Shown in pieces: positions 17,020 through 64,000 of a stretch of DNA of 64,000 bases. The stretch lies in contig OZ022597.1 of the NCBI GenBank assembly GCA_963669155.1, forward strand, positions 16,925,410 to 16,989,409. The letters run 5' to 3'. The translations under genes and the position numbers were made by a program. Below the pieces are notes generated by a model that was not told where the DNA came from, ran no database searches, and worked only from the letters and a program-made list of their open reading frames with translations. This DNA is from Arbacia lixula. Taxonomy: Eukaryota > Echinodermata > Echinoidea > Arbacioida > Arbaciidae. Positions within the stretch are counted from its first letter, which is position 1; every line of letters starts with the position of its first letter.

Positions 17020-17525
17020 TTAAGGGGAAATTCACCGTGAAATTATTTTGGTTTCAATAAAAAGAGACAAATGAAAGAAACATATGAGTGAAGGTTTGAC
17101 GAAAATCGGTCAAAGGAAAAGAAAGTTATTTGATTCTAAAGTTTTTATTTAGTGACGTCACATGCGAGGTGCTCTCCCATATGTTGTGTACATTTTTTTT
17201 TCGAAAATGTGCATTTTCTCACAAAGATATGCATCCTTTTACTTGTGCGTTTGATACATTATCAGAAATACGTTTTTACACACATACCTGTACGAAAAAA
17301 AAAATCATTCCGTTGTCAAAAACAGAAAAAAAGCAATTTATCGACTTATTTCGTACACAACATAAAGGAGAGCACCTCGCACGTGACGTCACAAAATCAA
17401 AAATTTAAAATCAAATAACTTTCTTTTCCTTAGACCGATTTTCGTCAAACCTTCACTCATATGTTTTTTTCATTTGTCTCTTTTTATTGAAACCAAAATA
17501 ATTTCAGAGTGAACTTCCCCTTTAA
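17020..17525. mobile_element. TTAA-flanked MITE, family 1, copy a
   Basis: TTAAGGGGAAATTCACCGTG at the left and the complement of TTAAAGGGGAAGTTCACTCT at the right, with TTAA at both ends (17020-17023, 17522-17525). The arms are ~150 bp, including GGTTTCAATAAAAAGAGACA and GACGTCAC blocks. It lies between the RNase H and recombinase parts of the DIRS element, in opposite orientation to the copy at 19169-19675. TTAA target duplications fit the piggyBac or Kolobok superfamilies. Confidence 0.88.
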
Positions 17526-18560
17526 GGCAACCATGATTGCGTTGGCCAGTTTGGCACAACCAAGATACCTGAAGCCCTATCAGACTTGATCTTTTGAATG
17601 CATCTAGCTGATAAGCAGAAGGGTGGAAAAGCATAAAAATTTAGCTTACCCCAATCTAGTGTGAATGCATCTACCGATTCCGCATTTGGATCCGGCAACC
17701 ATGAAACGTATCTCTGTGTTTGCGCATTCAACCTAGGAGCAAAAATATCAATTTCAGGACTGCCAAATCTTTGGTAACTTATTTGAATGCCGTTTTGCAG
17801 AGCATCCATTCAGTCCTGTCATTAAAATTGCGTGATTCATAATCCGCATCAACATTTTGGCTGCCTAGAAGGTGTGCAGCACTAATCCAGAGATTTCGTT
17901 CAATGCACCATTTCCAAATTTTTGCTGACAGCTTGTTACAATTGGAGGATTTTATGCCCCCCCCCCCCCCAATATTGTTAACACAGCATACTGCCGTTGT
18001 GTTACCAGACCTGATCAAGATATGGGCATTATGAGTATTACTGTAAAAAGATCGGAACCCAAGATCAATGGCCAAGATTTCAAGATAATTTATTTCATTG
18101 TTTTGTACTTTTTCACCTTCAAACTGATTCCACCTTCCCCCTGTATGAACTTGCATGTTTGTGGCACTCCATCCGTCGCCATTCGAGGTTTTTCCTTTTT
18201 ATAGGAGCAAAATAATGCCACGTCCACATGGATTATCCACCATTCAAATTCCTGCCTTGACTCATGAGATAGCTCCATGATTCTGTCATAATGTACTTTA
18301 TTCTTTCTCACGGCTTCTATTTTGTCCTTCTCCAGGTTTATATAAAACAGTGGCCCATGTTGGACAGAAGGGAAGGTGGAAATTATCTTTCTATTGTGCA
18401 ACCTGTCTAATTGTGGGTTTTGGTTGTGCTGGCAACTATTCACATTCCTCCCTGACATGAGCTTTCTCTACTGGGAGTTTAATGGTCATGTCTACGGTAT
18501 TGATGGTAAAGCCCAGGAACTGGAGATTTTGTACTGGTTTTAGCAGATTAGATCTCTTCT
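17526..18560 (-). pseudogene. DIRS RT C-terminal part and RNase H
   Basis: In order on the minus strand: KPVQNLQFLGFTINTVDMTI (RT thumb-side LGF motif), a stop, HESRQEFEWWI, then RNase H reading NYLEILAIDLGFRSF and NNIGGGGGIKSSNCNKLSAK, then the DIRS C-terminal block FGSPEIDIFAPRLNAQTQRY, VDAFTLDWGKLNFYAFPPF and ILVVPNWPTQSWLP. Several frameshifts and stops. The RT fingers and palm, including the YxDD box, are absent: gag runs directly into the LGF segment. The glycine run in NNIGGGGG comes from a C14 tract (plus strand 17957-17970). Confidence 0.85.
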
Positions 18561-34234: not shown

Positions 34235-35509
34235 TTATGTAAATGAAAACATGGCCTGATATTCCATCCTCACGGGGCTGTCGCATTTACTTTGTATGCT
34301 GTATATGCCGTAGTCATATCAATACTTCAATTAAAGAAGTTCTCCTCAATTTCATTTCTTATTTCAGCATTTGTATTGGCTAGTTTTATATCTCTACACT
34401 CGATACTCACGAGCTTTCGTCGCTTGTTCGCCGTTGCCATACCATTACTTCAATCAAGGATGTTTAAAGAAATGGATATCCATCCTTTTGAACAAGGTTT
34501 GAATCTGCCACTCAATATTCATGACTGGCAGCTGCTCTTAAGAGTATGATGCATACGCGATTCCGTCATGTCCAGCTGGATTTTACAATAGGTGATGCAC
34601 ATTCCTATACATGCATATATTTCAGCTTTCGCTGATGAACTCTTCATATCTCCTTTGCTATGTTTACGGGGGTATTGTAACTGTTGAGATGACGTGATTT
34701 AAACGTGTGCACATCACTTCTGCGTTTATGCTATGCCTCCCCGTTAGACGTGATTAGTCAGGATAGGCGTTTTGAAACGGCTTTTTTTATATAAAAATGA
34801 GCCGCAAGCTCGTTTTAAACTAAACGCGCATCAGAACGCTGATTTTGGCCCCAAAAGTTGAGCATTAACCCAACCTTTGTCACTAAGTCCTAAGCGAACA
34901 AGAAATTTTGTATTTTTCTCGATGGAAATGCTAGTTTTGGGGCGGCTTGGCACATTTTTCATGTTATAAATACACTTTATATAATATTTCATGTCACAAC
35001 AGCCGCGCAAGCATGTGGGGTGAGGATAATTCCTCCAGTTCTTCTGCGCATCCTATTTGTTTAAACATCAATTCCAGGCAACAATTGTCCAGAGAATCGG
35101 TGGGTTCGAATATGGGATCATTCTTTTGTGACTAGACATGCTAGAGGTTGACTACAATGAATCTGCATTGATCAAATGCCTGATGGTACTCCATGTAATT
35201 AAAACGTCCTTGCTTCAAATTAACGGAGTTCTCCTCAATATCATTACTTATTCAAGCATTTCATTACCTATTATATCGACACTTAATCCTCACAGGCTTT
35301 TGTCAAGTGTATCTGTATGCCATTGTCATATCATTGGTTTAATCAACATGATCAAGTAAGTTCTACTCAATATCACTATTCATTCAAGTATTTGTATTAG
35401 CTCTTTTTATATCTGTAAGCACGATCGTCACGTGCTTTTTGTCAAGGGTTTCAAAGATATTAATGATATTCACATTATACATTTGAATAAACGGCATAAA
35501 TAACAATAC
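34235..35509 (+). repeat. Interspersed repeat R, copy 2
   Basis: Matches 39325-40400 over most of its length (TTTACGGGGGTATTGTWACTG, AGCCGCGCAAGCATRTGGGG, GATCGTCACGTGCTTTTTGTC). Within it, a ~140-bp subunit with CTCAATATCAYTA..TCAAG..CATTT recurs about three times. A 2.7-kb retroelement insertion interrupts it at 35510. Confidence 0.8.
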
Positions 35510-36323: not shown

Positions 36324-37980
36324 TCAGTGTTTACTTAGGCGTGAAAATGGATGGTCATGGCATTGGTCTGCATTGATACCACGTGGTCTTAAGGTTTGTA
36401 GTTTGGATATCCAATGAGACTCTCGTTTTATGATGGTGTCGTGGTGCTTTGTTTTGACTATTTCGATGCCAGTGATGTTGATGTTTTGAACTGAGTGTCC
36501 CGGGAGATTGAAGTGTGTAGTGTATGGTAGAGTCTTGCTGTTTGGCTTGTTTTTGTTGTAGTTGGTAACTTCCGATCTAGTGTTATTTAGGCGTGTATAT
36601 AGCGTTGTCTCTGTCTTTCCTACGTATTGCATATTGCATTTAGTGCATGTGAGAAGGTATATTGCCCAGGATGATTTACAATTGATGTGATCGCGTATTT
36701 TGAACTTCTGTCCTGTGGAGGTGCTTTTGAACGTGGTTGTATCTTGAATGTGTTGATTTTTTGGCGTTGCATTTGTAGAATCCTAGTTGTGCCGTGGAAT
36801 TGTTTGTCTCAGCCAGAGGGGTGGTTGGGTTGTTGGCGTGGTTGTTGTTGCTGGTGGTTGTGTGGTTGTTGTTGTTTGTCTCGATGTTCGGTGCTTTGGC
36901 GTTGACAAATAGGTCGCGGAGTGATTTACTGCGGCCGAATGATGTCATAGGAGCTCTAGGGAAGATGGTTTGTAGTGTATGGCATTGTTGGATAAGTTGA
37001 TAATGTTTGTGGATGATTTTGGGTACTGCTGATGTGCCGGGTGTAAATGTGATAGAGAAGTGCACATTATTGGAAGCCTTTTTCTCCTTTTTGGTGAGGA
37101 GTTGGTCTCGGGGTGTGTTGGTGGCTTTGTGTAATTGTCGACTGACCATGTTTGTGTTGTATTGACGATGTGTGAGATGTGCTTCTAGTTTGTTGAGATG
37201 ATGGGTTGCTCTGTCCTGATTCGAGCAAATTCGTCTGATGCGGGTGGCTTGACTAAAAGGGATACTGCGGAAAGTGTGTTTGGGGTGGCAGGATGTGGGG
37301 AGAAGATACGTGTGTTTTTCTGTAGGTTTGTTGTACAGTTCTGTTTGGAGTATTCCTTCTTTAATTTGAAGTAGTGTGTCAAGGAAGCTGACTTCCGAGT
37401 TAGAGTAGTTGAAAGTGTATTTGATCGAGTGATGTTTTCTGTTGATTGCGTCTTGGAATTTTGAGAGGAGTCGGGGAGAGCCCGACCAAATGAAGTGAAT
37501 ATCATCTATGTAGCGTTTCCATGATCCTGCGATGATAGTATGGTGCCTCGAGTTAAGTATGTCCTTCTCAAGCTCGCCCATGAAAATGTTGGCATAGGAA
37601 GGTGCGACTGGTGTACCCATCGCATTCCCTTCGATTTGTAAATAATGTTGGTTCTGGAACTGGAAGTTGTTAAGTGTAAGAACTAGTTCTAGAAGGCGCA
37701 TGAGTTGATCTATAGGTGGATGCTGTGTGTTTCTTGTGTTGAGTGCAGTTTTACATGCTGCCATGCCTTCCCCATGGTGGATATTTGTGTAAAGAGACGT
37801 GACGCCTGCGTTACCAGTATGGCAGTGTATGGTGCGTTCTGGGAAAGGGGCATGAGAGGAAGTCTGTTGTGTCTTGGAAGTAGGATGGGAGTTTTTCTAC
37901 TAGCGGGTGGAGGTGGTAGTCTAGATATTTTGATATCTGTACTGTTGGACAGGAGCATCCTGACACTATGGGCCTTCCAG
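36324..37980 (-). pseudogene. Penelope-like element RT with GIY-YIG endonuclease
   Basis: From 37980 downward: [20 protein letters not shown] and [20 protein letters not shown]; then after a frameshift VTSLYTNIHHGEG (motif A), LQIEGNAMGTPVAPSYANIF, WKRYIDDIHFIW (catalytic Y-x-D-D), [14 protein letters not shown]; a low-complexity Asn/Thr linker; the Cys-containing NCKSSWAIYLLTCTKCNMQY; and the GIY-YIG domain YVGKTETTLYTRL..HWISKLQTL. The motif A aspartate (normally D-V-T-S-L-Y-T-N) is read as glycine (GGC). One frameshift lies in an A6 run near 36770. The plan fits the GIY-YIG-bearing Penelope group. Dead by several lesions. Confidence 0.92.
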
Positions 37981-42862: not shown

Positions 42863-42926
42863 GTGTCATCAAAAGAAGCTGTGCTGCTGGTCACGATGGG
42901 GGCGCTCTTCTCCATCGCCTGGGGAG
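42863..42926 (+). CDS. Candidate 5' exon encoding a hydrophobic leader (exon 1)
   Basis: A 3' splice site (TGTTTCACATTGTCAG, ending at 42862) and a donor (GGAG|GTGCGG) bound 64 bases reading VSSKEAVLLVTMGALFSIAW plus G, ending in phase 1. A short hydrophobic stretch ending in phase 1 is typical of signal-peptide exons and would splice in frame to 43930-44076. No start codon context was settled; an upstream exon may supply it. It is the weakest member of the gene model. Confidence 0.35.
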
Positions 42927-43782
42927 GTGCGGTATTTTTAAGATCTTCTTGTGTCACTTTGTAACAATATATGAGGCTGCTAAGCTTCACATCCAAAACA
43001 TTTTCAAGATAATGATTCTCATCGAAATAAGCAATAAAATGGACACAGTTATACGCATAGCTTTGTATTGCTATGACTACCTGGAATTCTTTACAATAAC
43101 ATGGCATGTTTGATCGACAATGCAAAGTTATTTGTTCTTCATTGGCATAGCTGGGTCATTTCTGACATAGCAACGATTATTCTGACATGAAAGAATGTTC
43201 GTCGGTAATGTGTGAAGACATGGCATGCTCATTGTGAGCAAGTGGTGAAAGTATTAGCAGTGGTTAGTTATGCGCAGAATTCTGACCATTCTCATTTGAT
43301 AGTACATGTCAGGACAAGAATCCTGATCGTGAGGATTTTCGAGGCGGCGCTTGGTGTTGCTGAGAAAAATATAGACGATTATTTTTAAGCATATATTTAT
43401 CTATGATATATATAAATTCGTTAAACAGTAAGTGATTTTGTCGTGAACATACTTATATGCATTAAAATATTACATTTAACATACATGTACATTTCCATGT
43501 CAGGAAATTTTTAAGCTTGTGAATTGCAACTCAAACATGACGTAACACCATTTATGCTGGAACATCGAAGCATTTAAACGTACACTGAAACTAGATTACG
43601 TAACATGTACACCGTAACTATGGCATCCAACTGATTTAGTCGGTTCGTCCCTCAGTCTCTATTTGTACTGGTTATCAGACGTTAATAGCGTAAAATCAGT
43701 CGTATCATGTGACAGTAGTTTTGTCAAATGTCTGTAAATATATTGTTTGTCAATTAAATGAACTAGGAAGTAATTCTTTGAG

Positions 43783-43842
43783 GCTCTCTCTCTCCTCCCC
43801 CTCTCCGCCTCTCCTTCTCTCTCCCTCTCTCTCTCTCTTTAT
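43783..43842. repeat. CT-rich microsatellite
   Basis: Pyrimidine-rich tract ~90 bp upstream of the next exon. Confidence 0.85.
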
Positions 43843-43929
43843 CCTTATCTCTTTCCACCAATTCTCTACCACGTTTTATTTTGTAACCATTCTTGCCTCC
43901 TTTCCTTCTTAACGTGTAATACTCGGCAG

Positions 43930-44076
43930 GCCTTTCTAAAGAAACAAATACGTTGGACACTTCTGGTTGTGGGGAAATCACAGTCCACGGATCTCTGATA
44001 CAACTCGTCCCGAAAGTATCGGAAAATCAGTCACTGATACCCGATAGACCATGGAACATCTTTTGTCGCCTGCCTG
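43930..44076 (+). CDS. Exon 2 of unrecognised secreted-type gene
   Basis: A pyrimidine-rich run and CTCGGCAG acceptor open a 147-base exon (49 codons), phase 1 at both ends, closed by CCTG|GTATGT. It reads LSKETNTLDTSGCGEITVHG then SLIQLVPKVSENQSLIPDRP and WNIFCRLP. Two cysteines and the CGxI..W.I.C arrangement faintly recall a CUB-type fold, but this is not secure. Spliced to the next exon it gives CRLPDCFSDPC. The 3.5-kb intron after it contains a LINE. Confidence 0.6.
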
Positions 44077-44934
44077 GTATGTCATGTATATGATTATGTC
44101 AGGCATTGTGCATGTAGTGTCGATGATTTTTTTTTTCTTAAATGCTCTCCAAACAGAAGGCACGTATAGTATATAAAATCATAACATTTCCTTTCACACA
44201 TTATAGTAAGGATGATTGAGAAAATAGAAATTGATCAGAATGAGTGTATTCGGGGACTACTAACCATGATCCAAATGACATGGTGTTGTATCATTAATTG
44301 ATCATGTCAAATAATCCTTCCGATTAAGCTGATCATGTAGAAATGTGATAATTATATTTAGACCTGTATATGAAAGCCGTTAAAGACAGACAAGAAATGT
44401 AGTATCTTTGTACAGGTAACTTTAAAACACGTTTCCATTAAAATCATGTCAGGAAAGCAACCAACGGGTCTTTCTATGCAAGTGGTCGCTAAGACTGGTT
44501 TCACTATAGCACTCTAACACAGCAATGGGTGCGCATCGCTTTACAGAGAGTGATAAATGGAAATCCCTTTCAAAATCATGCCTCACAGGGATCCGTGCTT
44601 AGCGCTTTTTCAAACATCTAGCAATGAGGATGATGATGGTGGTGGTGGTGGTGGCGGTAATGATGTGATGTTGATGATAATCATGATGAGCACATGTGAT
44701 GTGGAAGGTTGTTCCACCATGACCCTGCTACCATGACTACTCGGGTCTATGGTCACATGACCGCAGTACATGACTTTGGAACGTCTGGGAGTTTGTGATA
44801 AATTTTATTCCAAAAATATTGAATTTCCTTCAATTTTTTTTTTCATTGAAAACCCCCTCTGAATATCCTCTATTTCCTTTTCTTTATACATAACTGAATA
44901 TCCATATCACATTTTGTGACAAATTCTTTAATTT

Positions 44935-47305
44935 GTGTACATTCTTCAATGTATATCTTGGGAAAATATTAATTACCTCAATTCAAGTAGAGTTCACTTT
45001 CCGATCAAGAAGATCACATTTCGAAGGCTATCTGCAATCAATACTGATTTGTTAAAAGAAGATATTGTTGAAAGTCGTCTTTATAAGGAAATTCCCAATG
45101 ACGTTTCTGAACTAGCTACATTGTATGATACAACACTCAGAGAAGTGTTAGACAAGCATGCACCAAGGGTAGTAAAAAATGTGGTCCTGAGACCTAAGGT
45201 GCCTTGGTTAAATGATAGCATATTGGAGAAAAAACGGAAAAAGAGGAAAGCTGAGAAGCGTTGGTCAAAGACGAGAACAGATGAAGACTGGAAAGAATAC
45301 AAGTCAGCTAGAAACGCTTATTCTTTCCATTTGTATGAAGCACGCAAAGCCCATCACATAGTGTTGGTGTCTGAAAATAAAGAAAATCCAAAAACACTGT
45401 TTAATATCGTGAAAGGTCTGTTAAACATGACTAACAAACAGCCAGTTATACCAAATTATGTTGATAGTAAAACCTTTGTCAATAGCTTAGGGAATTACTT
45501 CTTGGATAAAGTTCAGAAAATTCATGATGATATTGAATCCAAAATCAGTAATGTTAACAAATTAACCACTGACGAAATCTCACTTGATAAAGGAATTTTA
45601 GTTCTCACAGATTTCAAAGAATTGCCTGAACATGATGTTAAAAATCTTGATCATGAAGCTTTGTAAAAAATCCTGTCCATTGGACCCAATGCCCACAAAA
45701 ATACTTATGCAATATTTGGATGTATTATTACCTGTCATAACCTCCGTGATCAATACATCTATGTCAACAGGGCAGTTTCCTGCTCTGTGGAAAGTTGCAC
45801 TTGTTAAACCGCTGTTGAAAAAGTCAGGTATTGGTACAGAATTTTGTAATCTGAGGCCTATTAGTAATCTTCAGTACATTTCAAAGTTGGTAGAAGGCGC
45901 TGCTACCCAACAAATCCTTGAGCACATTGATTCTCACTCACTCATGCCAATCAACCAATCAGCCTACCGAAAATTTCATAGCACTGTAACAGCACTCCTA
46001 AGAATCAAAAGTGATCTTCTAATGTCAATGGATGACCAGAAGATTAGTATACTGCTCTTACTTGATTTGACCGGCACTTTTGACACTATTGACCATTTGT
46101 CTCGGTTACAAACTTTAAAAAGTCATTTTGGGATAAATGGTACAGTTTTTGCTTGGATCGAATCTTACTTGGCTGATAGAAAACAGATGGTTGAAATGAA
46201 TGATATTGAGTCAGATGTGTTCAAGGTACCTTTTAGTGTCCCTCAAGGGTCACGTCTAGGACCCTTACTTTTTACATTGTATACAAGCAGACTCCTCACA
46301 AATATTGAAAAGGAGTTCCCCATTATTACTTGTCACTGCTACGCAGATGACACCCAAATATATTTGTCATTCTGTCCTAACACACCAACTGAAGACTACT
46401 GTATCAGTGTGTTAGAAATATGCATTGAGTACATCAGAGCTGTTAGTCATTGGTACTCCACGTCAAGTATCCAAGTTTCGGACAAATGGTATATCAGTAC
46501 GTGGCACTGTTATAAAACCGTCCCATAGCGTAAGAAACCTAGGAGTCTTATTCGATACCCATTTGAGCATGGAGTCACAAATTACTAGTGTATGCAAATC
46601 AGCATATTACATGATTTATCATCTGAGGCGCATTCGTAAATATTTCGATCAAGATAGCATGAAAAGTGTAGTTCACGCATGCATTACGAGTAAATTAGAT
46701 TACTGTAATAGTGTACTGTACGGATTACCAGACTCACAGATAGCAAAGTTACAGCGGGTTCAAAATACATGTGCAAGATTGATTTGTAATCTTCCAAAAT
46801 TTGCCCATGTTACACCATTGTTAAGAGACTTGCACTGGCTGCCCGTACGCCAAAGAATTGAATTCAAAATGTTGGTGATAGTCTTTAAAGCATTAAATGG
46901 TCAGGCTCCTAGATACATTAATGAATTACTGCATTTTAAATGTCAAACCTATGGTCATAATCTCCGCAGTACACAAGACACATCGTTGTTGCAAGTCCCC
47001 CAAATCAGAACAAAAGTAACCCTAGGTGGCCGATCATTCTATTGTGCAGCTCCTAGATTGTGGAATAAACTACCTGGAGACATCAGGAAATCTAAAACAT
47101 TAGACAGCTTTATATCAAAGGTGAAAACCTATTTGTTCTAAACACAGACCTAATCTACTTCTGACCATGATTTAAAATTATACAGCATTACGAAGTAGAA
47201 GTGCATATAAAAGCTCTTGCAGCGCAGTAGAATATATAAATATAGTTTCTGCGCTCTATAAATGATTTATTATTATTATTACTGTTATTATTATTATTAT
47301 TATTA
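44935..47305 (+). pseudogene. 5'-truncated CR1/L2-like LINE in an intron
   Basis: Linker (LREVLDKHAPRVVKNVVLRP, VPWLNDSILEKKRKKRKAEK), then after a frameshift near 45660 the RT: KSCPLDPMPTKIL, NLRPISNLQYISKLVE, motif A LLLDLTGTFDTIDH, B' VPQGSRLGPLLFTLYTSRL, C CYADDTQIYLSF. A second frameshift with a small deletion lies near 46440. The C-terminal domain follows (ELLVIGTPRQVSKFRTNGIS, LHWLPVRQRIEFKMLVIVFK, APRLWNKLPGDIRKSKTLDS) to the stop at 47141. It ends in a (TTA)n tail at 47265-47305. Catalytic motifs A and C survive. Endonuclease absent. Confidence 0.93.
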
Positions 47306-47390
47306 TGATTAATGCATGCGTGAAGACAGGTGATAATTCCTGAAAGATAACTCTTGCGGCGGATTGGCCTGAACAAGAGAGTACAAGCAT

Positions 47391-47517
47391 AGAGTACCGA
47401 AGAGTGACGTCATTTGAGCTTTATTGTCAAGACCGGTAAACCTATCAATGGGGTGATTTTGTTTAGAACCAGTTGTTTTTACAACATATTTACATGACGA
47501 CACTACTCCGGTACTCT
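47391..47517. mobile_element. Foldback MITE, AGAGTACCGAA family, copy 2
   Basis: AGAGTACCGAAGAGTGACGT..TTGTCAAGAC and its mirror ..GGTACTCT. 127 bp, internally deleted relative to the other copies. It ends 55 bp before the next exon. Confidence 0.75.
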
Positions 47518-47572
47518 TTATAGAAGACTGGATTAAAGTTCGCATATGCATTGGTAACCATTGTTGTTATAG

Positions 47573-47692
47573 ATTGCTTCTCAGACCCGTGCGGCCCTTA
47601 CTGTGAATGTGAAGAGACTCGGGATGCCTTCGAGTGCCACTGCCAGGAATCAACCTCAACCACCTCCGCTCCTACAACAACTAATATCCAAG
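47573..47692 (+). CDS. Exon 3: EGF-like cysteine cluster plus Ser/Thr linker
   Basis: Acceptor TTGTTGTTATAG and donor CAAG|GTGCGT bound 120 bases (40 codons), phase 1 both ends. It reads CFSDPCGPYCECEETRDAFE, CHCQ, then ESTSTTSAPTTTNIQ. Six cysteines spaced C-x4-C-x3-C-x-C-x8-C-x-C resemble, but do not exactly match, an EGF domain. The Thr/Ser/Pro tail looks like an O-glycosylated linker. The best single argument that this is extracellular protein. Confidence 0.7.
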
Positions 47693-47787
47693 GTGCGTCC
47701 ACAAGATATACGATCAGCGTGGTATTCAGAACTAGGCATCTATGCTGTGTTTAACGTTTTTCTCGACGCTTTTTCTCTGAGTCGGAC

Positions 47788-47970
47788 AACATGTCACTTG
47801 GTGTGATGTGTATGTGTGGGTTTAAAGGCCGTCACATACGATGCGATCTGGTGACGAACATGTATCCTGTACGGATGCACCCTTAAGTCCAACCTGGTTA
47901 TTCGTCGGACGACATGTCGCTTTGTTGGATTTATATGTGTGGGTTTAAAGGCCACCACACACGACGCGAC
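47788..47970. repeat. Tandem duplication, ~120-bp unit
   Basis: ACATGTCRCTTTGTTGGATT..TATGTGTGGGTTTAAAGGCC occurs at about 47788 and 47909. Confidence 0.65.
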
Positions 47971-48680
47971 CAGACCAGTTGTACGATTCTGCGACTGGCT
48001 TAATCGCAGGTACTGGCCATTGGATTTGTGCAACAAGATGACGTCACATTTACAGTCGAAAAGACAAAATGGTGTCGTCTGCGGCGGCCTTAAGTAGAGC
48101 ATAAAGGCGACAATGGCTCTTAATTCTCAACGGGTTACGCGTACAAAAGAAACTGGGATAAGTTTAAAACAATGATGTCAACATTTATATCTATATGTGG
48201 ACATTTTGAATATTCATACTATGAATTTGTTATGATGTGATCACATTATGGGTTGTCTGTTGAGTATTACAATATACCATGTGCAGAAGAATAAAAGGTA
48301 TGAATTTATACCCATATTCAGATAAACATTGGGAGATGAATTATAATTGTTCGTTGGGAGACGTGCCTTTGGTTGTGTGTTTAATCCGGGAGCTTAAAAC
48401 CCCACGGAAGAAACGAAACTTGGTAAAAGAGTATCTCCATTTTACACAACATGATAACTTAACCTGAGTAGGTAGCTTAAGGAAAATCTCAAAATTTTTT
48501 GGCTTCGATGGTTGTTGGGCATTTCTAATCCGAACTATTGAATAAAGGGGTTCGACTGCAGTAAACTTCCTTCTCCATTTCTTTACCTGCTCTCCCACAC
48601 CTTGGGTGGATTAAGAAATGAGAAATATAACATGGCCCGTCTTATCAGTACTAGGTTTTTTCCCCTTCAAATTGGATCAG

Positions 48681-48953
48681 AAATGTCGAAGAGTATGGGA
48701 GCAAGGCTATCAATACAGCTGAACATGGGATGGAACGATGCGTTATACAGACAGAAATGGACATCAAAGTCTATGCTCTTCCTAATTTTCCAAACATCCG
48801 AGCATTCTATTTACCAACAATTCACATTCTCCTTGTGTCCTTCATGCACAGAACTGATGACAACGCCGAACGGCATCCAATGTCCTTCTGGTGACTTCGG
48901 ACAGCACATGCAAGTGGAATTAAGTATGAACATAGACATGGTTATCTTCTTAT
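48681..48953 (+). CDS. Exon 4 of unrecognised secreted-type gene
   Basis: Acceptor TTTTTTCCCCTTCAAATTGG..ATCAG and donor TTAT|GTATGT bound 273 bases (91 codons), phase 1 both ends. It reads MSKSMGARLSIQLNMGWNDA, LYRQKWTSKSMLFLIFQTSE, then FSLCPSCTELMTTPNGIQCP and ends NIDMVIFL with a Cys completed by the next exon. No known domain recognised. The donor lies 30 bases before a long minisatellite. Confidence 0.6.
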
Positions 48954-48982
48954 GTATGTAACTGTTCAGAAGTCTCACGCCA

Positions 48983-50146
48983 GGAGCTGGGCAGATCCCA
49001 TTGCGAGCTAGGTTGGTCACATTGTGAGCTAGGCTGGTCTGATCACATTGTGAGCTGGGTTGGTCTCACTCTAAGCCAAGCTGGTCTGATCACATTGTGA
49101 GCTAGGTTGGTCACATTGTGAGCTGGGTTGGTCTGATCACACTGCGAGCTAGGTTGGTCTCACTTTGAGCCGAGCTGATCCGATCACACTGCGAGCTAGG
49201 TTGGTCTCACTTTGAGCCGAGCTGATCCGATCACATTGTGAGCTGGGTTGGTCACATTGTGAGCTGGGTTGCACTTTAAGCTTAGCTGATCCGATCACAT
49301 TGTGAGCTGGGTTGGTCACATTGTGAGCTAGGTTGCACTTTAAGCTTAGCTGATCCGATCACACTGCGAGCTGGGTTGGTCACATTGTGAGCTAGGTTGG
49401 TTACATTGTGAGCTGGGTCGGTCTCACTTTGAGCTGAGCTGATTCGATCACACTGCTACCTGGGTTGATCACATTGTGAGCCGGGTTGGTCTGATCACAT
49501 TGTGAGCTAGGTTGATCTCACTCTGAGCTAAGCTAATCCGATCACACTGCGATCTGGGCTGGTCACATTGTGAGCTATAGATTGAGCTGCACATGCGAGC
49601 TACGCTGGTCACATTGTGAGCTGGGTTAGTCTGATCACATTATGAGCTAGGTTGGTCTCACTCTAAGCCAAGCTGATCTGATCACATTGTGAGCTGGGTT
49701 GCACTTTGAGCTCAGCTGATCCGATCACATGGTGAGCTGGGTTGGTCACATTGTGAGCTGGGTTAGTCTGATCACATTATGAGCTAGGTTGGTCTCACTC
49801 TTAGCCAAGCTGATCTGATCACATTGTGAGCTGGGTTGCACTTTGAGCTCAGCTGATCCGATCACATGGTGAGCTGGGTTGGTCACATTGTGAGCTAGGT
49901 TGGTTACGTTGTGAGCTAGGTTGGGCTGACCACATGCGAGCTACGCTGGACTCATGATTATGAGCTGGGTTTGACTAATCATCCTGCGAGCTAGGCTGGT
50001 CACATTGTGAGCTGGGTTGGTCTGATCACAATGTGAGCTCGGTTGGTCTCACTTTGAGCCAAGCTGATCTGATCACACTACGAGCTGGGTTGGTCACTCG
50101 CTAAGCTGTGCTTACTGTATAGCTGGCTTGGTCACAATGAGAGCTG
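48983..50146. repeat. GAGCTRGGTTGGTCACATTGT minisatellite
   Basis: About 45 variants of GAGCTGGGTTGGTCACATTGT (21 bp), mixed with longer forms containing TCTGATCACATTGT or TCTCACTTTGAGCC. Blocks of several units recur as higher-order repeats (for example 49620-49760 and 49740-49880). Confidence 0.95.
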
Positions 50147-50184
50147 AAATAGTACTTGAACATATTAACAACATCGTGAAACCA

Positions 50185-50905
50185 TGCACTTGTTGCTGTG
50201 AATTACAGATTGAACGAAGTAGTCAATATCAACGTGATATAACGTGAGTCTAAAAAAAATATACATTTTTGAAATGGCTGCCAAATAAAGAGTGTTTAAT
50301 TCTGAGGAAAGTGTTTCCTTGTGTGGATAGGTTATGGTCTCAACTTTCATCTGACACCAAAATGTCCAAAAATAATACTTGCTTGAATGAGCACTGCTCA
50401 CTTCTGTAAAGGGTATGAAAATTAGGCTGCGCATGAATTAGCCTTTACTTAATAAACAGATTGGGATTATGTAAATTCATTATTCAAATACATTTTGTTG
50501 AAAAGAAAAGGAATGTCTCAGCTAGCTGCCTATTCTTCAGGTTATCCTAAAAAATAATTTGCCGGCATCTTTGACATTCTTTTTTTCTCCCACCCATAAT
50601 TGAATATTCAATGTTACATTATCCCTTTCTCTCGCAAAATTGGAAGGTTAATTCCTGCGCAGCTTAATTTTTATAACATTTACAAAAGTGAGTAGTGCTC
50701 ATCCAAGCATGAATTATTTTTATGAATTATTTTCATATGAAAGTTGAGTCCATAAGCTATCCATACATGTAATATTTTCCCCTGAATCGTATATATTTTT
50801 TCATTTGGCCGCCATTTCAAAAGCGCATAGTTGTTGAGACACACGGTATAAACAGGCGTCAAATCAAAGTGAAGTATGTGTTCATCGCATATTTCTGATA
50901 CTGTC
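50185..50905. repeat. Foldback repeat (~240-bp arms)
   Basis: The left arm (to about 50440) and the reverse complement of 50650-50905 share TTTTGAAATGGCKGCCAAAT, CTCAACTTTCATMTGA, TGAGCACTRCTCACTT and AATTARGCTGCGCAKGAATT. Confidence 0.7.
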
Positions 50906-50915
50906 GATAGTTTAG

Positions 50916-51065
50916 GTTTGCCACGACTGTGATAATGACTGTGACGATGGCAGCTGCTCTTCACAATGTGATGCATACGTGATTTCACCACGCCTGTCAG
51001 GAGGCTACAGAAGATTCTACGTCACAATGACAGATTTGAAATCCCTTATAACACTAGAATGCTAA
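50916..51065 (+). other. Cysteine-rich open frame (possible exon, weak)
   Basis: After TCGATAGTTTAG the frame reads VCHDCDNDCDDGSCSSQCDA, then YVISPRLSGGYRRFYVTM. Seven cysteines in 48 codons are striking, but the splice phase (0) does not fit the neighbouring phase-1 exons and no good donor is seen. Confidence 0.2.
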
Positions 51066-51250
51066 ACCTATCTTACTTGCTGGTACTTGTTCATTGTTTG
51101 GTTTCAGATTTGCTGTTCACCTATACCACAAAAACATACTGCAAAGCATCTGTGTTGTTCTGCAGTATTGATTAAAGTTCACTATTTATAGGATGATTTT
51201 TTTCCAACAATGCACACAAAACCACACAAAATCAATTTATCGGGAAGCAC

Positions 51251-51765
51251 TCGTTATTCCGAAGATTCATTATTCCGAAGGTTCGAATACTCCGAAGGTT
51301 CGTCCGAAGGTTCACTATTCCGAAGGTTCGGTAGTCCGGGAACAAAATAAGGTTCGTTATTCTGAAGGTTCGTTTGTCCGAGAAAGAAATAAGATTTGTT
51401 ATTCCGAAGGTTCGTTAGTCCGAAAAAGGAATACGGTTCGTTATTCCGAAGGTTCGTTTCTTTGAAACCGTAAAAAGGTTTGTGTTGTTCCGAAGGATAG
51501 TTATTCTGAAGGTTCGGACTAACGAACCTTATTACATTTTCGGATTAACGAGCCTTCGGAAAAACGAACCTTATTTCGTTTTCGGATTATACGAACCTTT
51601 GGAGTAACGAACCTTTGGAATAACGCCACAAATGCTCGGATGAACGAACCATTTTCCGTTTTTCGGACTAACGAGCATCGAGGTATAGGCAATTTACATG
51701 TTTCAAAATTACAAACCTTCGGAATAACGAACCTTCGGAATAATGAACCTTCGGAATATCGAACT
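51251..51765. repeat. Palindromic TTCCGAAGGTTCGTTA array
   Basis: From 51251 to about 51515 the unit TTCCGAAGGTTCGTTA recurs about ten times with degenerate spacers (CGAGAAAGAAATAA-like). From about 51515 to 51765 the same units run in reverse complement. The turning point is near 51515. Confidence 0.92.
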
Positions 51766-51787
51766 GTAAACAATTTATGTGGCACAG

Positions 51788-51889
51788 ATGGATTTAAGAG
51801 TTCGCACTTCGGTGATATAATCCTTCTGAACGCTCATAATGACAGAACATGTGATTCCTGTGTGGTAACAATGAAAGGACTGCTCTGTG
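51788..51889 (+). CDS. Possible extra exon (weak)
   Basis: The acceptor ATGTGGCACAG is followed in phase 1 by DGFKSSHFGDIILLNAHNDR and TCDSCVVTMKGLLC. The only phase-1 donor is a poor TGTG|GTTTGC, and the reading frame stops shortly after. If real it would sit between exons 4 and 5 and keep the frame. Confidence 0.22.
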
Positions 51890-52500
51890 GTTTGCACATT
51901 GGACCATTTTGATTCACGTGGTAATCTGAGTGCGTACATAGTATTCTGTGTTGCCAGACCAACCTCACTTAGGTCATGCTCTGACATTTAATCTTCTTGA
52001 AAGATCAGTTGGCTGATACCAGTAGGGAGTTTGTGGACCTCTTGATGAAAGATTGTGAGTAGCGTTCCATTTATTGCGAAATGCTACCAGAATATATTTA
52101 TCTTCATATCAGTCATACCCAGCTCGCGCAAAACAATGCTGCGTGTGTCACACGTACGCGATATCAACAAAATTTGTGCGTTTGTACGTTCATAGATATT
52201 ATGAAACATAATGAACATAATGAAACTGCGCTACCTTTCGCTTAATTTTCAATAATGAGTGATGTAAAGCAACTAACCAATGTGCTGCTATGAGCGGGTA
52301 AATCTATTACCTCGGTGGGGTACAAATGACCATTACCCTCGGCTAAAGCCTCTGGTAATAATCATTTCACCCCATCTTGTTAAAAGATTTACCAGGTCAT
52401 AGCAGCACATAGTTTAGTTGTATACTATCTTCCCGACTATCTTACGAACTAGTCTATTCAGTGTCTTTTTTCTTTCTTCTTGTACTCGCGCATGTACCAG

Positions 52501-52770
52501 GTGGATGGATGTACGACATATCGTGTTGCGCAACGCAATACGTGGAAACATACGATTTCTGTGTTGACCATTTCCGCGGAGCCGGATATACGCCTCCACC
52601 AGAGTTCGACACCCAAACCCTGGCCCGAATGGCCCGGGAGGGGTGCACCGTGACAGGCGACCTCTTCTGGATCCATTGTTACGGGATTAACAGACCCAAG
52701 GCGTTCTGCGCTTCTTGCCCGAGTTGCGATGAGTTCGCTGACCTCCCTGACCTTACCGGAAACTACACGG
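52501..52770 (+). CDS. Exon 5: cysteine-rich module
   Basis: Acceptor CTTTTTTCTTTCTTCTTGTA..TACCAG and donor ACGG|GTAATC bound 270 bases (90 codons), phase 1 both ends. It reads GWMYDISCCATQYVETYDFC, VDHFRGAGYTPPPEFDTQTL, ARMAREGCTVTGDLFWIHCY, GINRPKAFCASCPSCDEFAD and ends GNYT, a potential N-glycosylation site. Eight cysteines. GC-richer than its surroundings. Family not recognised. A foldback MITE begins 22 bases into the following intron. Confidence 0.75.
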
Positions 52771-52792
52771 GTAATCGCGTGGTGTGTGATAT

Positions 52793-53021
52793 AGAGTACC
52801 GAAGTGCGACGCCGTCAGAGCATTATCGTCAAGACAACCAGCTGGTTCTAAACTTTGCGGGTAGAGCAACCAGTGGTGATCATAGCGGGGAATCCAATTG
52901 GAAGTGCCCTTCACTGGCCCGCTAGACAATACCGGACCGGTAAACTTCTCAATGGAGTGATTTTGTTTCGGACCAGTTGTCTTGAGAATATGCTCAAATG
53001 ACGACACCATTTCGGTACTCT
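52793..53021. mobile_element. Foldback MITE, AGAGTACCGAA family, copy 3
   Basis: AGAGTACCGAAGTGCGACGC..TATCGTCAAGACAA and mirror ..TTGTCTTGAGAATATGCTCA..TTCGGTACTCT. 229 bp, immediately inside an intron. Confidence 0.8.
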
Positions 53022-53595
53022 GTTGCACACAGCACACTTCTTGCATCTGTACTGATAATTCCTTCTCTTTCTTCTCAAGTTGTCTGTCAGATTTTAGCTG
53101 TGAATCTGTCGCCGCTAAAAAACACGTAGGATAAAATGGTTAAGCACCTCTCAATTCATACGAATACTTTGCAGATTTTGTATTAGGTTTTAATTGGATC
53201 ATGAAGCTATAAAACATGTTATAATGTTAAGTTTTACAATTGTTGGTCAAAGGGTTGCTGGCATGATGTCATACATGTCATAGGTAATCGATGGTATGAT
53301 TGGGCAACGGACATCTAAAGTTAGCGTGTAAACATTGGTTGTTTCTCAAAGACATGAGAGGTATATTGTGCATGATTCGGTGATCGCTATACCATTTTTC
53401 TAAAAGTGCATGTGCAAAATCAACTTTAATTTGGCCTTTGTGAAGGTCGATATAATGTCATGAAAGTTACGATTTCAACATAAGCCTATATAGCATTTCA
53501 AAATTGCCTTTTCTTCATAATGAATTACATGTTTATCGACGCGTTTTAATACTTCGTGTTTGAATAGAATTGAAATGTTTAATTGTTTTCCCCAG

Positions 53596-53703
53596 CATGG
53601 TCTCCTATCATTGTTCCTGAGGGGTACATGTTTCTTACCAATGAGGGCGAGTGGCAGCTCGACCCTGATCACCTGATGGTTCTTCCCGTCAATGTGTGCG
53701 TCA
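53596..53703 (+). CDS. Exon 6 of unrecognised secreted-type gene (3' limit uncertain)
   Basis: Acceptor TTGTTTTCCCCAG, entered in phase 1, gives AWSPIIVPEGYMFLTNEGEW and QLDPDHLMVLPVNVC. Possible donors are TGC|GTCAGT (good, but phase 0), AATGT|GTGCGT (phase 2) or GTCA|GTTCTA (poor, but phase 1 and 108 bases, which would join exon 7). Without a donor the frame ends in TAG at 53719-53721. Confidence 0.5.
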
Positions 53704-53791
53704 GTTCTACGCCCTTACCATAGACAGCTTGTTGCAGTTATGTGTGCACGTGTGCGCGCGCGTGTCTGTAAGTGTGTCTGTATATGTGCCT

Positions 53792-54195
53792 CCCTGAAAT
53801 TAATTTAGTTTTTATAAAAACATAAACATGACGGAAGCATATCAATGAAGGTTTGGCGAAAATCCGTCAAAGGATGAGAAAGTTATCATCTTTTGAAATT
53901 TCAATTTCGTGAAGTCACGTGCGAAATGATCTCCCATATGTTGTGTTTAAAATAATTCCATAAATGGCTCTTTTTCTGTTTTTGACAACGCATTTTTTTC
54001 ATTCAGGTTTGTGTGTAAAAAAGTATTTTTAATGATGTATCAATACACAGGTAAAATGATACAGATCTGTTGAGAGAATGCATATCTTTTAAAACAATTG
54101 TACACAACATATGGGAGAGCACCTCGCACGTGGCGTCACTAAACAAAACTTTAAAAGATCATAACTTTCTCATCCTTTTGACGGATTTTTAGTAA
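53792..54195. mobile_element. TTAA MITE, family 1, truncated copy
   Basis: CCTGAAATTAATTTAGTTTT..GAAGGTTTGGCGAAAATCC..CACATATGGGAGAGCACCTCG matches 17020-17525, but both TTAA ends are missing. A LINE 3' end abuts it at 54196. Confidence 0.8.
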
Positions 54196-55182
54196 AGTTG
54201 CAGCAGGTTCAAAATACATGTGGAAGATTAATCACGAGAGAGGTTTACGGTACACCATGTGTAAAGTCCTGGGAGGACTGAGATGAGAAAAGAAAACGAC
54301 TGTCCGTCTGAAGACGGACAGTCAATCTGCCCGAAGCGTCGAGTCTACCTCTCTACTCATCAGCTCTTCACGCTTTCTGGTTTACAGTCCTTTTCAGGAC
54401 TACACTCATTTCGAAAGAATACTCTACTTTCAAATCTCGACTTTCTCGCTTGTCCATTTCACCTTAAATTCTATCCACGTTTTCTTTTCTCATCTCAGTC
54501 CTCCAAGGACTTTACACATGGTGTACCGTAAACCTCTCTCGTGATTGATCGTACCACCATGCAAACCTTCAAACATCATCTGATGTGGAAAATTGATGTG
54601 TAATCTTCCCAAATTTGCCCATGTTACACCATTATTAAGAGACTTGCACTGGCTGCCCATACGCCAAAGAATTGAATTTAAGATGTTGGTGATAGTCTTT
54701 AAAGCGTTAAATGGTCAGGATCCTAGAAACATTAATGAATTACTACATTTTAAATGTCAAACCCATGGTTATAATCTCCGCAGTACACAAGACACATTGT
54801 TGTTGGAAGTCCCCCAAATCAAAACAAAAGTAACCCTAGGTGACCAATCATCCTTTTGTGCAGCTCCTAGATTGTGGAATAAACTACCTGTAGACATCAG
54901 GGAATCTTAAACATTAGACAGCTTTAAATCAAATGTTAAAACCTATTTTTTTCTAAACATAGACCTAATTTACTTCTGATCATGATTGAAAATTATATAT
55001 GATTACGTAGTAGAAGTGCATATAGAAGCTCTTGCACCACAGTAGAATAAATAGATATAGTTTCTGCGCTCTATAAATGATTTATTATTATTATTATTAT
55101 TATTGCTATTGTTATTATTAGTATATTATTATTATTATTATTATTGTTCTTCTTATTATTATTATTATCATTAGGATTATTA

Positions 55183-55232
<50 letters not shown>
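54196..55232 (+). pseudogene. 5'-truncated CR1/L2-like LINE, second copy, with foldback insert
   Basis: Begins in the C-terminal domain (AAAGTTGCAGCAGGTTCAAA), is interrupted at 54231-54589, and resumes with CNLPKFAHVTPLLRDLHWLP, EFKMLVIVFKALNGQDPRNI and APRLWNKLPVDIRES before a TAA (TCT-TAA where the copy at 44935 reads TCT-AAA). It ends in a 150-bp (TTA)n tail. Close relative of the 44935-47305 copy. Confidence 0.9.
54231..54545. mobile_element. Foldback element with Penelope-like hairpin
   Basis: Arms of 68 bp (54231-54298 and 54479-54545): ATCACGAGAGAGGTTTACGG..AAAGTCCT..GGACTGAGATGAGAAAAG. Between them is a perfect 11-bp hairpin (GACTGTCCGTC TGAA GACGGACAGTC, 54298-54323) followed by CGAAGCGTC. 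CTGAAGA plus CGAAGC resembles a decayed hammerhead core. It interrupts the LINE. The flanks AGATTA and AAATTGAT suggest an imperfect short target duplication. Confidence 0.65.
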
Positions 55233-55745
55233 ATTACTAGGTGGTCTGTCGCCAACGACAGATCATCTCTGAATTTCGTCAGAAATTTCTTTTTTATTCT
55301 CTTTATTATTTATTTTTATTCTTTCACCCCCACTTTTTTATGCCGCGCGTAACTCCTCTTTGCCTCTATCATTTTTATTGAAACTTCCATCACTTCTTGG
55401 TATTTATGTAACCTTTTAGGAAAAGGCTTTTCAAGGTAATTTGATAGAAATCTATTGCTTCATCCTACTCTAGAATGGATTATTGGATCAAAAGGAAATT
55501 TGACATGAATGAATTTGATAAGTAGACAATTGATTTCATTACAAAAAACGCGCGCGTACGCGTACGTTAATGCATTTACAAGCGTTCAAAATTTAAAAAT
55601 GCTGTAAATCAGCTAAAACTTTTTTGCAGATGTTTTAGGCCATTTTGAGCATTTCGAAAATTTCCGCGCGTTCACGCGTTTTTTCGGGCGCAACGCGAAC
55701 GCAGTGTCAAAATTCAATTTTTTACTGGTGTCATGTTTCCCATGT

Positions 55746-55878
55746 TTTGAGCCATTTCCATGCAAGAAAAAGGTCGTGCGGGTGCGTCAAAGCTTCATGT
55801 TTCTGACACTACATAGATCACATCCTGCAATTTTGAGCCATTTCCATGCAAGAAAAAGGTCGTGCGGGTGCGTCAAAG
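55746..55878. repeat. 47-bp direct duplication
   Basis: TTTGAGCCATTTCCATGCAA..GTGCGTCAAAG occurs identically at 55746-55792 and 55832-55878. Confidence 0.9.
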
Positions 55879-56506
55879 TTGAAAGTCTGCGCGCTCGTCA
55901 ATACGTTTTTGTGTGCAAATATAGTTAAAAACATAACTACCTTCAATCGGCCATAGCTCTTCAAAATGGCTTGTGACCCCCATTTTTTTTTAATATTCTA
56001 AAAGAATGGGAAATCAGGATGTAATTTGATGTTCGACTTACCTTTTAGACTTATGTTGATGTCATTATATTGCCATATGAATAAAAAAAAAGATTTTTCA
56101 TGTATGACGTCATGAAGTTTTTTACCCGTTTTTGCGTATCTCAGTAATCCTTGGTCGATTTCCTCCCAAATTTCACTATGTTGTAGCTGAGACCTTGCTC
56201 TATTGTAATAGTTGCTTTCATTTTTCATTTTGATAACATCTTCATGGTGTAAATTTCATTATACACATTAATGTCATAACCGGCCGCATGTACGTGTTAT
56301 GCCAATGGAAGGGGTATTCATGAAATTACATGACGACCTTCTAGGAGCTGTATCTCGCTGATGTTAAAATCTATTACTGTTAAATTTTAGTATGTCGTAG
56401 CTGAGTCTACTAGCTTTTTATAAGATGTCGGGATCATGGTGAAATTTTAGCTTGAATATCGAAGTCATTCTAGCCCCTGCTGGGCATTAAGTGTTAAGTG
56501 AATGGG

Positions 56507-56582
56507 AAGATTTGTGGCTCAATGGGTAAGGCGCCGTTTTATGAACCCGAGGACCCCGGTTCAATTCCTGGAGTGGGTAGGG
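56507..56582 (+). tRNA. tRNA-like sequence (A and B boxes only)
   Basis: TGTGGCTCAATGGGTAAGG (A-box-like) and CCCCGGTTCAATTCCTGG (B-box and near-complete T stem) at normal spacing. No acceptor pairing was found, so it is more likely the head of a tRNA-derived SINE than a tRNA gene. Confidence 0.4.
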
Positions 56583-56730
56583 TCAATTTTGCATTCCTTT
56601 TTCAATGTTTATTTTGCAACCTTTCATGTGGGAATAATCGTTTCCTAATGTCAGAAATGTGCTAGCTGTGTGATGCTATTATAAGTACTTTCAGGTAGTC
56701 ATTTCAATGTTTAGTTTGTGTTGTTTGTAG

Positions 56731-56895
56731 CTGATCAACATGTTTTGACAAGGCGCAGATACCGGAGACGACTGAACGCTATGGTTTGCACCACAGTGCA
56801 TGCGTTCAATGGAAGCAACTGCGGTACCCGGCAACTCGCGCACAGACAGGGGCAATACGATTATGAATGTATACTACGGCCGCAAGGTTACAAAA
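56731..56895 (+). CDS. Exon 7: basic segment plus cysteine module
   Basis: Acceptor TTTGTGTTGTTTGTAG and donor AAAA|GTAAGC bound 165 bases (55 codons), phase 1 both ends. It reads DQHVLTRRRYRRRLNAMVCT, TVHAFNGSNCGTRQLAHRQG, QYDYECILRPQGYK. The RRRYRRR run is a possible furin-type processing site. NGSN holds a potential N-glycosylation site. Degenerate copies lie at 59800-60000 (minus) and 63591-63770 (plus). Confidence 0.7.
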
Positions 56896-57299
56896 GTAAG
56901 CGTCGATATGTTTTCACTTTTCTTGAAAAGGTTCTTGAAGTTATTACTCTGAGATTTCATACACATTACTATAAGGGTATACTGACGTGTTTTCTATTTC
57001 TCTCCCGACCTCTTTATCTCCCGCTCTTTCCCAAGCCCCACCAAAATTCCCTGCTCGATTTCTTTCACTCTTTCTTTACTTAAATCGTACAAATTGCTTC
57101 TAAACGTTATGATTCAATTTAAGTTGTCTTGATGAAAGACAAACAGAAAAAGAAAAGAGGAAGAATCCATAAGTTAGACAAGTAAGTGGCCACTTAGCCA
57201 TCAACAACAACAGCATAAACCAGAGAAACATTTACCCTAAGTCATTACACCATGAGGTTTTCGAGGTGGATAAGGCATGTAAGGAAAGCATGGGCGGAA

Positions 57300-57352
57300 A
57301 TCCCGGGGGGACGGGGGGGGGGGGGGGGGGGGGACGTGCCCCCCCCCCCACA
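57300..57352. repeat. Facing poly(G) and poly(C) tracts
   Basis: A G20+ run, GACGTG, then C10. Able to form a hairpin or quadruplex. Confidence 0.9.
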
Positions 57353-57716
57353 CACACACCATTATATGCACCGAACGAGACAGAAATGTTACCCACACCT
57401 GAGTCAGTGCACTTTCTCTTCAACATCCAATTCCTTATCTCAGAACGACATATGTACTACACCAGCACCATCTACGACGAAAAGTATATAGTCAACTTAA
57501 TGTCTGAGAAAGCCGATTACAGATCCAGTCTGAGCAAAAGCTGGTACTACCTTCAACATTAAATTCACTTAAATCATTCGCTGCCTCATTTGATCATGTC
57601 ATTTCAAGAGCCTTGGTGCTTCTTTTCCTATCTCTCTTTCCAATATAGATTAGGCAAATCTTGATAAAATTTCGGTGCTACACATAATGAGATTTTTTTA
57701 TATTTTGCTCTCGTAG

Positions 57717-57795
57717 ATCTGTGCGAAACGTCGTAGAACTGGACAAACTCTCTGACAGCGGAAAAATGTAATAAACGCTCTCAAAAACAAGCAGG
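57717..57795 (+). CDS. Candidate terminal exon with stop and poly(A) signal
   Basis: Acceptor TATATTTTGCTCTCGTAG. Joined in phase 1 to exon 7 it adds NLCETS and a stop TAG (57734-57736). AATAAA follows at 57770-57775. The short reading, correct phase and nearby poly(A) hexamer make a plausible gene end. A phase-2 reading would give SVRNVVELDKLSDSGKM and a TAA overlapping the same signal. Confidence 0.45.
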
Positions 57796-57799
57796 ACAA

Positions 57800-59795
57800 A
57801 GACCTATTACGTCACTTTTAATTTTTTGGCCAATGTAATCAAGTAAATACTTTATATACTTTTAGATCAGGCTATTTATTACAGCTTCTTAGCCATATTG
57901 CTTCTCTCAAGTTCAAGCAGATGTTGTCATGTTTTATCGCCCCATATTTAGATATCGGTTACCATAGTTATGACAAAAACAAGTGTTATAAAAGCTGAGC
58001 TCAATCATTTCATACCGAGATTTCGTAATTCTAGTTAACCGTTTGTGTGCCAGCCAATTGGTTGTTCTATGGGATTTTTTGGCGTGTATTATCTGTACAA
58101 AAATACAACAATGGCGCGTACACATTTAAAGAAAACGAGTGAAGTATGTCCAAATCTTCTTGGCCCTTACCAACATTTTTCACATAGAGCCTTGCATTCG
58201 CCGTGCTTCTAATGACTTATTGCGATCCTCTGCGCCCCCCTCCTTAACCGCCATCCTCATAAATCTAAAAGAATGCCCGTAACCATGACAACGATGCTCT
58301 TCCCCGTCAGAGGGGCAACATAGGATGAGGAAGAGTCAGTAAACGAAGTCATTCCTCGCCCAGGGAAGATCAAGAGGCTCTTGAAATTCGCTCAAGTACT
58401 ACTCCTGCCGCCTTGGAGCTACTTAAACCAGCCGGATGGATCATAAAACTAATGATTATTCTCATTCCAATGCAATATTCACCGGTCTGAGGGGCACCGT
58501 CTTGACCACGCAATGAATTTTACATTTTCCAGAAAAAAAAGAAAGTATACGCACAAACAGAAATAATAAAGAACATAAGCTGAACTGAATGTTATTATGG
58601 TTATATTTCAGGATGTTAATGAACCAAGTGGAGTGTGTTATCCCAGCAACGGTCAAGGGCGCAACCATTATGCAAGGGGGGCTTACGTCATCATTTAACG
58701 ATATTTAATTGAGTTAAAAGAAGAACACTACTCCTAAAACTGCCACAAATAAAAATATCAAAAACAAAACAAAAAAGCAAACAAAAAGGGGAAGGAAATA
58801 AGATTAAGATGTAAAGAAAAGATCTACCCATAAAGAAACTTCTTGTAAATAAAAACAGAAAATAACACAAACGGATTCGCACAAATATGAGTAGAATCGT
58901 CCAGATAACAACAAACGTCATGAATTTTGGAATGGAATTCCCCCGTTCTTCCTGATACTGATGCCCTTGGCCCCAATTCTCTGGATTTCACCTGCGTCAT
59001 CTAAAGTCCATCCTGCGTGCCCATAGAGTTAGATCTATTTTGTAAACCACTCGTTCTGGGTAATTGGCGGTCTGTTATCCGCAAAGGCGAGCACTCTAAT
59101 CATGTTTGTGGTAATCTAGCGATGACCTTCCCACTGTCATCCCTTATTGATAGCCTCAACCATACGGTGGATCAAGACGAGCTCGAGCACGACTACGCAC
59201 CTCGCTCCCGATGAGTTTTTTGCTATTTGATGTGATGTAGTGTATGCGTGCAGTGATGTGATTGCTTCGTGTGTTGTCCTATCGGTCAACAATGATAGAT
59301 CAATAAAAAAACATATCACCATTTTAAACAAATTCATTAAACAAGACATAACACACACGAGTCCCATTCACTTGATAGAACAGTGCTTTCCCCAGCACAA
59401 ACGAGTGTTAAAGAATCGCTACTTTCTTAGAAATGTTCTTACGCCAATAGTAATCTTGGAATGTTCAATTGATGTGAATTAGGCCTTAGAATCCATATAT
59501 TTTAGCCATTTGCATGCCAGACACAGGGTGCTCTTTGTGGTATCTGTGTATTTTCGTTGAAGTAACATACAGGTGGCACCTTAAAATTCATGAAACTCGG
59601 CAGGAATCAGCAGTATACCCTAAAGTGTATGAAATCTCACAGTCGTAACTTCACGAACATTTCTAGGGAAAATGATTAACTATCCTTGTCTAAGTTTGAA
59701 ACCCACCGATCATTAATACTTTTACACAGGACCTTGATGAAAAACCGTTTGTGCTGATGTTTTCATCCGTTTTAATTATGTTTGAATAAATAATT
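57800..59795. other. No gene recognised
   Basis: AT-rich DNA. A 65-codon plus frame ending at 59214 (GEHSNHVCGNLAMTFPLSSL) looks mildly protein-like, but no splice site in a compatible phase was found. Confidence 0.4.
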
Positions 59796-59799: not shown

Positions 59800-60000
59800 A
59801 AATAAATAAATGAATCATAGTCTACATTCGTAAACGTATTATCCTTGTCAGCGTGCGATTCGGGCATTTCTCTCATTGAAAGCATGCACCGTGGAGCGGA
59901 CTGTGCCAAACGATAACCCAGAGCGATCTCCGGTATTTAAGCTGTAGGTTTCGGACGACCCGCCCAAAACCTCCTCAAAATCTAGCAATCTCTACAATTT
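59800..60000 (-). pseudogene. Degenerate copy of exon 7 (minus strand)
   Basis: The minus strand reads TVRSTVHAFNERNARIAR, TGA, QG, TAA, YVYECRL, TGA, aligning in frame with TTVHAFNGSNC..HRQGQYDYECIL of exon 7. A flanking CCGAAACCTACAGC block is shared with the 63591 copy but not with exon 7. Confidence 0.65.
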
Positions 60001-63590: not shown

Positions 63591-63770
63591 GTAAATTTTA
63601 AGGAGGTTCGGGGCTGGTTAGTCCGAAACCTACAGCCTAGAGACCGGGGACGGATGTGCTCTTTGGTCCGCTCCACGGTGCATGCGTTCAATGGATGTTC
63701 GCATCGCGCGGTGAGAGGGACTATACAATTATGAATGTACACTATGCTCGTTGCATCTCAAACGTATTTA
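63591..63770 (+). pseudogene. Degenerate copy of exon 7 (plus strand)
   Basis: Reads RMCSLVRSTVHAFNGCSHRA, then after a one-base shift YNYECTLC, aligning with NAMVCTTVHAFNG..QYDYECIL. Similarity continues into intron-like sequence downstream (TTTTCACTTTTCCTGAAAAT..CATACACGTTATTG versus 56908-56985). A CCTACAG acceptor-like site precedes it. The frameshift and lost residues suggest a dead duplicate. Confidence 0.6.
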
Positions 63771-64000
63771 AGGATAGTTTTTCACTTTTCCTGAAAATGT
63801 TCGTGAAGATATGACTGTGGAATTTCATACACGTTATTGTACGTGTTGTAAGGGTATACTCCCGATTTTTACCGAGTTTCATGACTTATGCAAATGAGAC
63901 ACCCTGCATTTAATTTTTAAGTGCATGGTGCAGTAACTAATATACCGCATCATGGTGAGATGAAGACTCCATCGCCTCAGCAAGAGAAAAGATTTAGATT

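Follow-up and report, generated by a model that had tools for sequence, protein, structure and literature searches.

A candidate short run of host exons in a transposon-rich stretch of Arbacia lixula DNA, where phase-1 symmetric segments are common by chance

According to excerpts of one account, class 1-1 modules, which have symmetric phase-1 borders, are preferred in extracellular proteins (PMC8001218). The segments discussed here share that form, with borders at which splicing would take place, but unlike such shuffled modules only one of them resembles a known module, and chance readily produces symmetric open segments in this DNA. That one segment is like the EGF-like modules of extracellular animal proteins in the order of its six cysteines and in its phase 1-1 borders and carries in addition a Ser/Thr/Pro linker, whereas it has no evident last part and its Pfam match is sub-threshold. 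A third comparison is with the Methuselah-like receptors of the secretin superclade, where, as may be the case here, cysteine-bearing sequence precedes a possible membrane part; unlike those receptors, the exons considered here come with no 7tm match in the three + frames of 53.7-63.6 kb and no Methuselah_N match. In the portions of the source that treat this family, many members are described as having ectodomains without known domains, and the Methuselah_N ectodomain of arthropod members as having ten cysteines (PMC4768249).

The window analysed is a stretch of 64,000 nucleotides from the echinoid Arbacia lixula. A sequence-only reading had placed in it a single gene made of five consistently phase-1 exons on the + strand, at 43930-44076 (segment 1; 147 bases, donor 7/9), 47573-47692 (segment 2; 120 bases, donor 8/9), 48681-48953 (segment 3; 273 bases, donor 6/9), 52501-52770 (segment 4; 270 bases, donor 6/9) and 56731-56895 (segment 5; 165 bases). 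All five were found as described, each with AG and GT borders, no stops, both ends in phase 1 and a length that is a multiple of three. The phase-1 symmetry taken as the telling pattern thus stands as form, but it does not rise above chance when the − strand and the reversed sequence serve as controls. With no limit on splice scores, the + strand between 42 and 58 kb offers 488 segments of 90-400 bases that run from AG to GT, stay open and are symmetric 1-1. Requiring a donor score of at least 6/9 and at least 7/13 pyrimidines at the acceptor gives 104 for the + strand of the whole window, against 54 for its − strand and 71 when its sequence is reversed. The + strand does have a real excess, but retrotransposon frames contribute to it; of the 15 merged 1-1 loci listed for that strand of 42-58 kb, a retrotransposon at 44.9-47.3 kb contains three and its copy at 54.6-55.1 kb one. 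Segments of class 1-1 will always join in frame, whichever are picked, so that the agreement in phase is a product of how they were chosen. The earlier reasoning from phase is sensible, yet it does not turn these segments into exons.

Cysteine richness, which had been claimed for the joined product, holds for segments 2 and 4 and fails for the other three: segments 1 to 5 contain 2, 6, 3, 8 and 3 cysteines, and as many are found in 48%, 0.9%, 44%, 1.4% and 29%, respectively, of stop-free window pieces of equal length. The GC content of segments 4 and 2 is 0.559 and 0.525, against 0.393 for the window, with 0.503 for segment 5, 0.463 for segment 1 and 0.418 for segment 3. Coding potential was scored with a Fickett table whose values serve only for comparison inside this window, and the random pieces were drawn from the whole window with exons and low-complexity stretches included. 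On this scale segment 1 scores 0.484, with 87% of random pieces as high, and it is a doubtful exon because it falls below most of them. The corresponding shares are 5% for segment 2, 10% for segment 3, 10% for segment 4 and 64% for segment 5. Segment 3, although its own score lies in the top 10%, is doubtful as well, its composition being ordinary and its borders weak. Of open stretches with 139 residues or more, like the one around this segment, the two strands of 42-58 kb have five against 0.47 per shuffle, an excess that still leaves room for it to be coding.

Segment 2 is a plausible exon, with six cysteines in EGF-like order. Its match to Pfam EGF_3 (PF12947; E 0.015, 15.9 bits) is below the cut-off of 28.5, so that no EGF-like domain is called at the curated threshold, EGF_3 being the sole match. 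A search of the window in all six frames meets a loose five-cysteine EGF spacing pattern once, where 30 shuffles average 0.5, and the cysteine spacing is therefore not significant alone.

Segment 4, by composition the most exon-like of the five, sits inside an open frame of 170 residues, and 8 of its 89 residues are cysteines. The two strands of 42-58 kb have four open stretches that reach 170 residues, against 0.08 per shuffle (60 shuffles), and these are three retrotransposon frames and the frame holding segment 4. Downstream of it we found a putative exon missed earlier, at 53596-53721 on the + strand, which starts in phase 1, continues the frame of segment 4 and reaches an in-frame TAG at 53719-53721. 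Its acceptor has 10 pyrimidines in 13 positions, the best of those scored; its GC content is 0.52, and 11% of random window pieces have a Fickett score as high as that of 53596-53718. By eye no AATAAA lies close 3′ of it, which makes its role as last exon uncertain. A stretch at 50952-51008 with a weak likeness (tblastn E 1.2) to the final part of segment 4 was set aside, as its nearest acceptor misfits phase 1 by eye; a second ground is that 50948-50984 matches 34526-34562 in the self-comparison of the window. The single-sequence AlphaFold model of segment 4 has a mean pLDDT of only 49.3 and is of no use.

Six exon sets, picked after the data were seen and all given here, were scored as joins against a null that mixes chance-segment joins from the − strand and from the reversed sequence. 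Segments 1+2+3+4+5 score 0.544 (55% of chance joins as high), 1+2+3+4 0.584 (51%) and 1+3+5 0.625 (49%), while the sets that include 53596-53718 reach 0.738 with segments 2+3+4 (18%), 0.844 with 2+4 (10%) and 0.918 with 4 (8%). None of these scores is strong, and they are only suggestive.

We prefer, at a rough probability of 0.5, the reading that true and chance segments were over-chained, and that a short portion of a host gene lies on the + strand at 47573-47692, 52501-52770 and 53596-~53721 in phase 1. It draws on the GC content of 0.52-0.56 of its three segments against the window mean, the long open frame around segment 4, the many cysteines of segments 2 and 4, the matching phase and good acceptor at 53596, and the join scores of 0.844 and 0.918. 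Against it stand the weak donor of segment 4 (6/9), scores that are only suggestive for exon sets chosen with the data in view, and homologue searches that found nothing; start exon, signal peptide and clear 3′ end were likewise not identified for it. The transposon-rich DNA would then hold a short run of host exons spliced in phase 1, in which an EGF-like exon that includes a Ser/Thr/Pro linker leads to the cysteine-rich exon and on to the exon at 53596. The product would be exported, with disulphide-rich modules that may fold extracellularly and bind an extracellular partner. It is plausible that this short run is part of a gene, intact or decayed, whose protein is secreted or sits at the surface; such a protein had already been proposed, and the proposal remains plausible for segments 2 and 4 with 53596-53718 added, but not for the five-exon chain.

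The reading that comes closest to this one, to which we give a considerable though smaller chance, holds that there is no host gene and that the segments, with borders that only look like splice sites, are open by chance or derive from decayed transposons. It is favoured by the frequency of such segments by chance and by the density of repeats in the region. A retrotransposon with broken frames occupies 44932-47305 (+) in the proposed first intron, its extent and non-LTR type being our reading of its frames and of the self-comparison; RVT_1 is matched at E 5.1e-23 within 45602-46525, and the 3′ part has a 91% copy at 54583-55120. One further repeat family lies near the segments at 47389-47530 and 52791-53021 and again at 9746-9985, and palindromic stretches lie near them at 50238-50850, 51251-51762 and 52270-52420. 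A long degenerate minisatellite (48984-50147) directly follows segment 3 on its 3′ side, and a palindromic repeat of ~400 bases at 53792-54189 has more copies near 17.1-17.5, 19.2-19.6 and 60.8-61.3 kb. Segment 5 was rejected as an exon, with 139 of its 165 bases inside a dispersed repeat that has copies elsewhere in the window: 56757-56968 matches 63639-63836 (E 3e-19, 70% across 212 columns), with opposite-strand matches at 59818-59897 and 59611-59675. Segments 1-4, on the other hand, lie in no repeat found within the window by this self-comparison (E up to 1e-3; rows for 42.5-58 kb other than those starting at 48990-50140, in the minisatellite), which speaks against the absence of a host gene, as do segments 2 and 4 by their composition, their cysteines and the length over which they are open.

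Other elements were seen farther from the segments. Frames on the − strand at 36324-37896 resemble a Penelope-like element, as we take it to be, with a presumably GIY-YIG-like second frame at 36324-36782 and an RVT_1 match of 24.4 bits, below the cut-off. At 15982-18467 (−) a frame resembles Phage_integrase (E 1.1e-4, also below the cut-off), and other frames near it suggest a DIRS-like tyrosine-recombinase retrotransposon. Three tRNA matches exceed the Rfam cut-off, at 132-200 (+), 4164-4224 (−) and 6241-6311 (−), the first and last of which are also called by ARAGORN.

The absence of a host gene is favoured, too, by homologue searches in Pfam, PDB and a set of 5.8 billion proteins that stayed empty at threshold. 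Pfam queries with single and joined exons, the joins being approximate (the first protein had two incorrect residues at its junctions, the fifth incorrect letters at its junction), returned only the EGF_3 match in segment 2, and no family for segment 3 or segment 4; with no domain at cut-off in joined or single exons, no exon borders were found to match known domains, as they would in an exon-shuffled protein. Segment 4 with 53596-53718 had no match in PDB. In the 5.8-billion-protein set, where exon relatives shorter than ~171 residues never became candidates, neither the 311-residue join (506 candidates) nor the 131 residues of segment 4 with 53596-53718 (51 candidates from a widened length range) had a match up to E 10. 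This set may hold few spliced animal genes, while related transposons are present: as a control, the neighbouring reverse transcriptase found 1475 relatives, the nearest among the 120 listed having 76% identity over 87% of the query, 86% over 74% and 88% over 49%, and some among the matches listed carrying coral names (Paramuricea clavata). No relatives of the exons were found in viral contigs, and two matches to segment 4 in prokaryotic (bacterial) genomes, covering 19 residues (22-40) only, were taken as chance. Pfam scans of + frames over 24.0-63.6 kb gave RVT_1, ALKBH8_N, which occurs in LINE frames, and a weak DUF6451; the − strand was seen by Pfam through single frames only.

That 52501-52770, 53596-53721 and the upstream EGF-like exon represent an undescribed cysteine-rich family, secreted or surface, confined to one animal lineage, is in our opinion unlikely. 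Far less likely still is a Methuselah-like receptor for which the exons would supply the ectodomain, its membrane part being lost or encoded farther downstream. What suggests it is a presumed likeness of 53596-53718 to the sequence that leads up to the first membrane helix in these receptors. The frequency of ectodomains without domains in this family, as far as the source describes it, fits as well (PMC4768249). Yet the Pfam scan of the three + frames over 53.7-63.6 kb gave nothing, and thus no 7tm_2 seven-transmembrane domain; moreover, Methuselah_N is not matched by Pfam in the exons, and an in-frame stop lies at 53719-53721.

The five-exon model as first drawn, one cysteine-rich extracellular gene with five or more phase-1 exons and an end near 57.77 kb, is the least credible of all, for although every segment is open, in phase and bordered, its joins with and without segment 5 are equalled by 55% and 51% of chance joins, it passes over the better acceptor at 53596, and segment 5 is a dispersed repeat, the kind of result named beforehand as undoing the chain. 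Nor does its terminal exon hold: AATAAA is indeed present at 57770-57775 and an AG precedes the piece at 57717-57775 (+), but the phase-1 reading stops there after five residues, and the piece was rejected as an exon.

The check teaches that phase-1 symmetric open segments arise easily by chance in animal DNA, as seen from the hundreds on one strand of 16 kb. If the exons at 47573-47692, 52501-52770 and 53596-~53721 are true, they would add one more uncharacterised invertebrate extracellular protein gene, useful for annotation.
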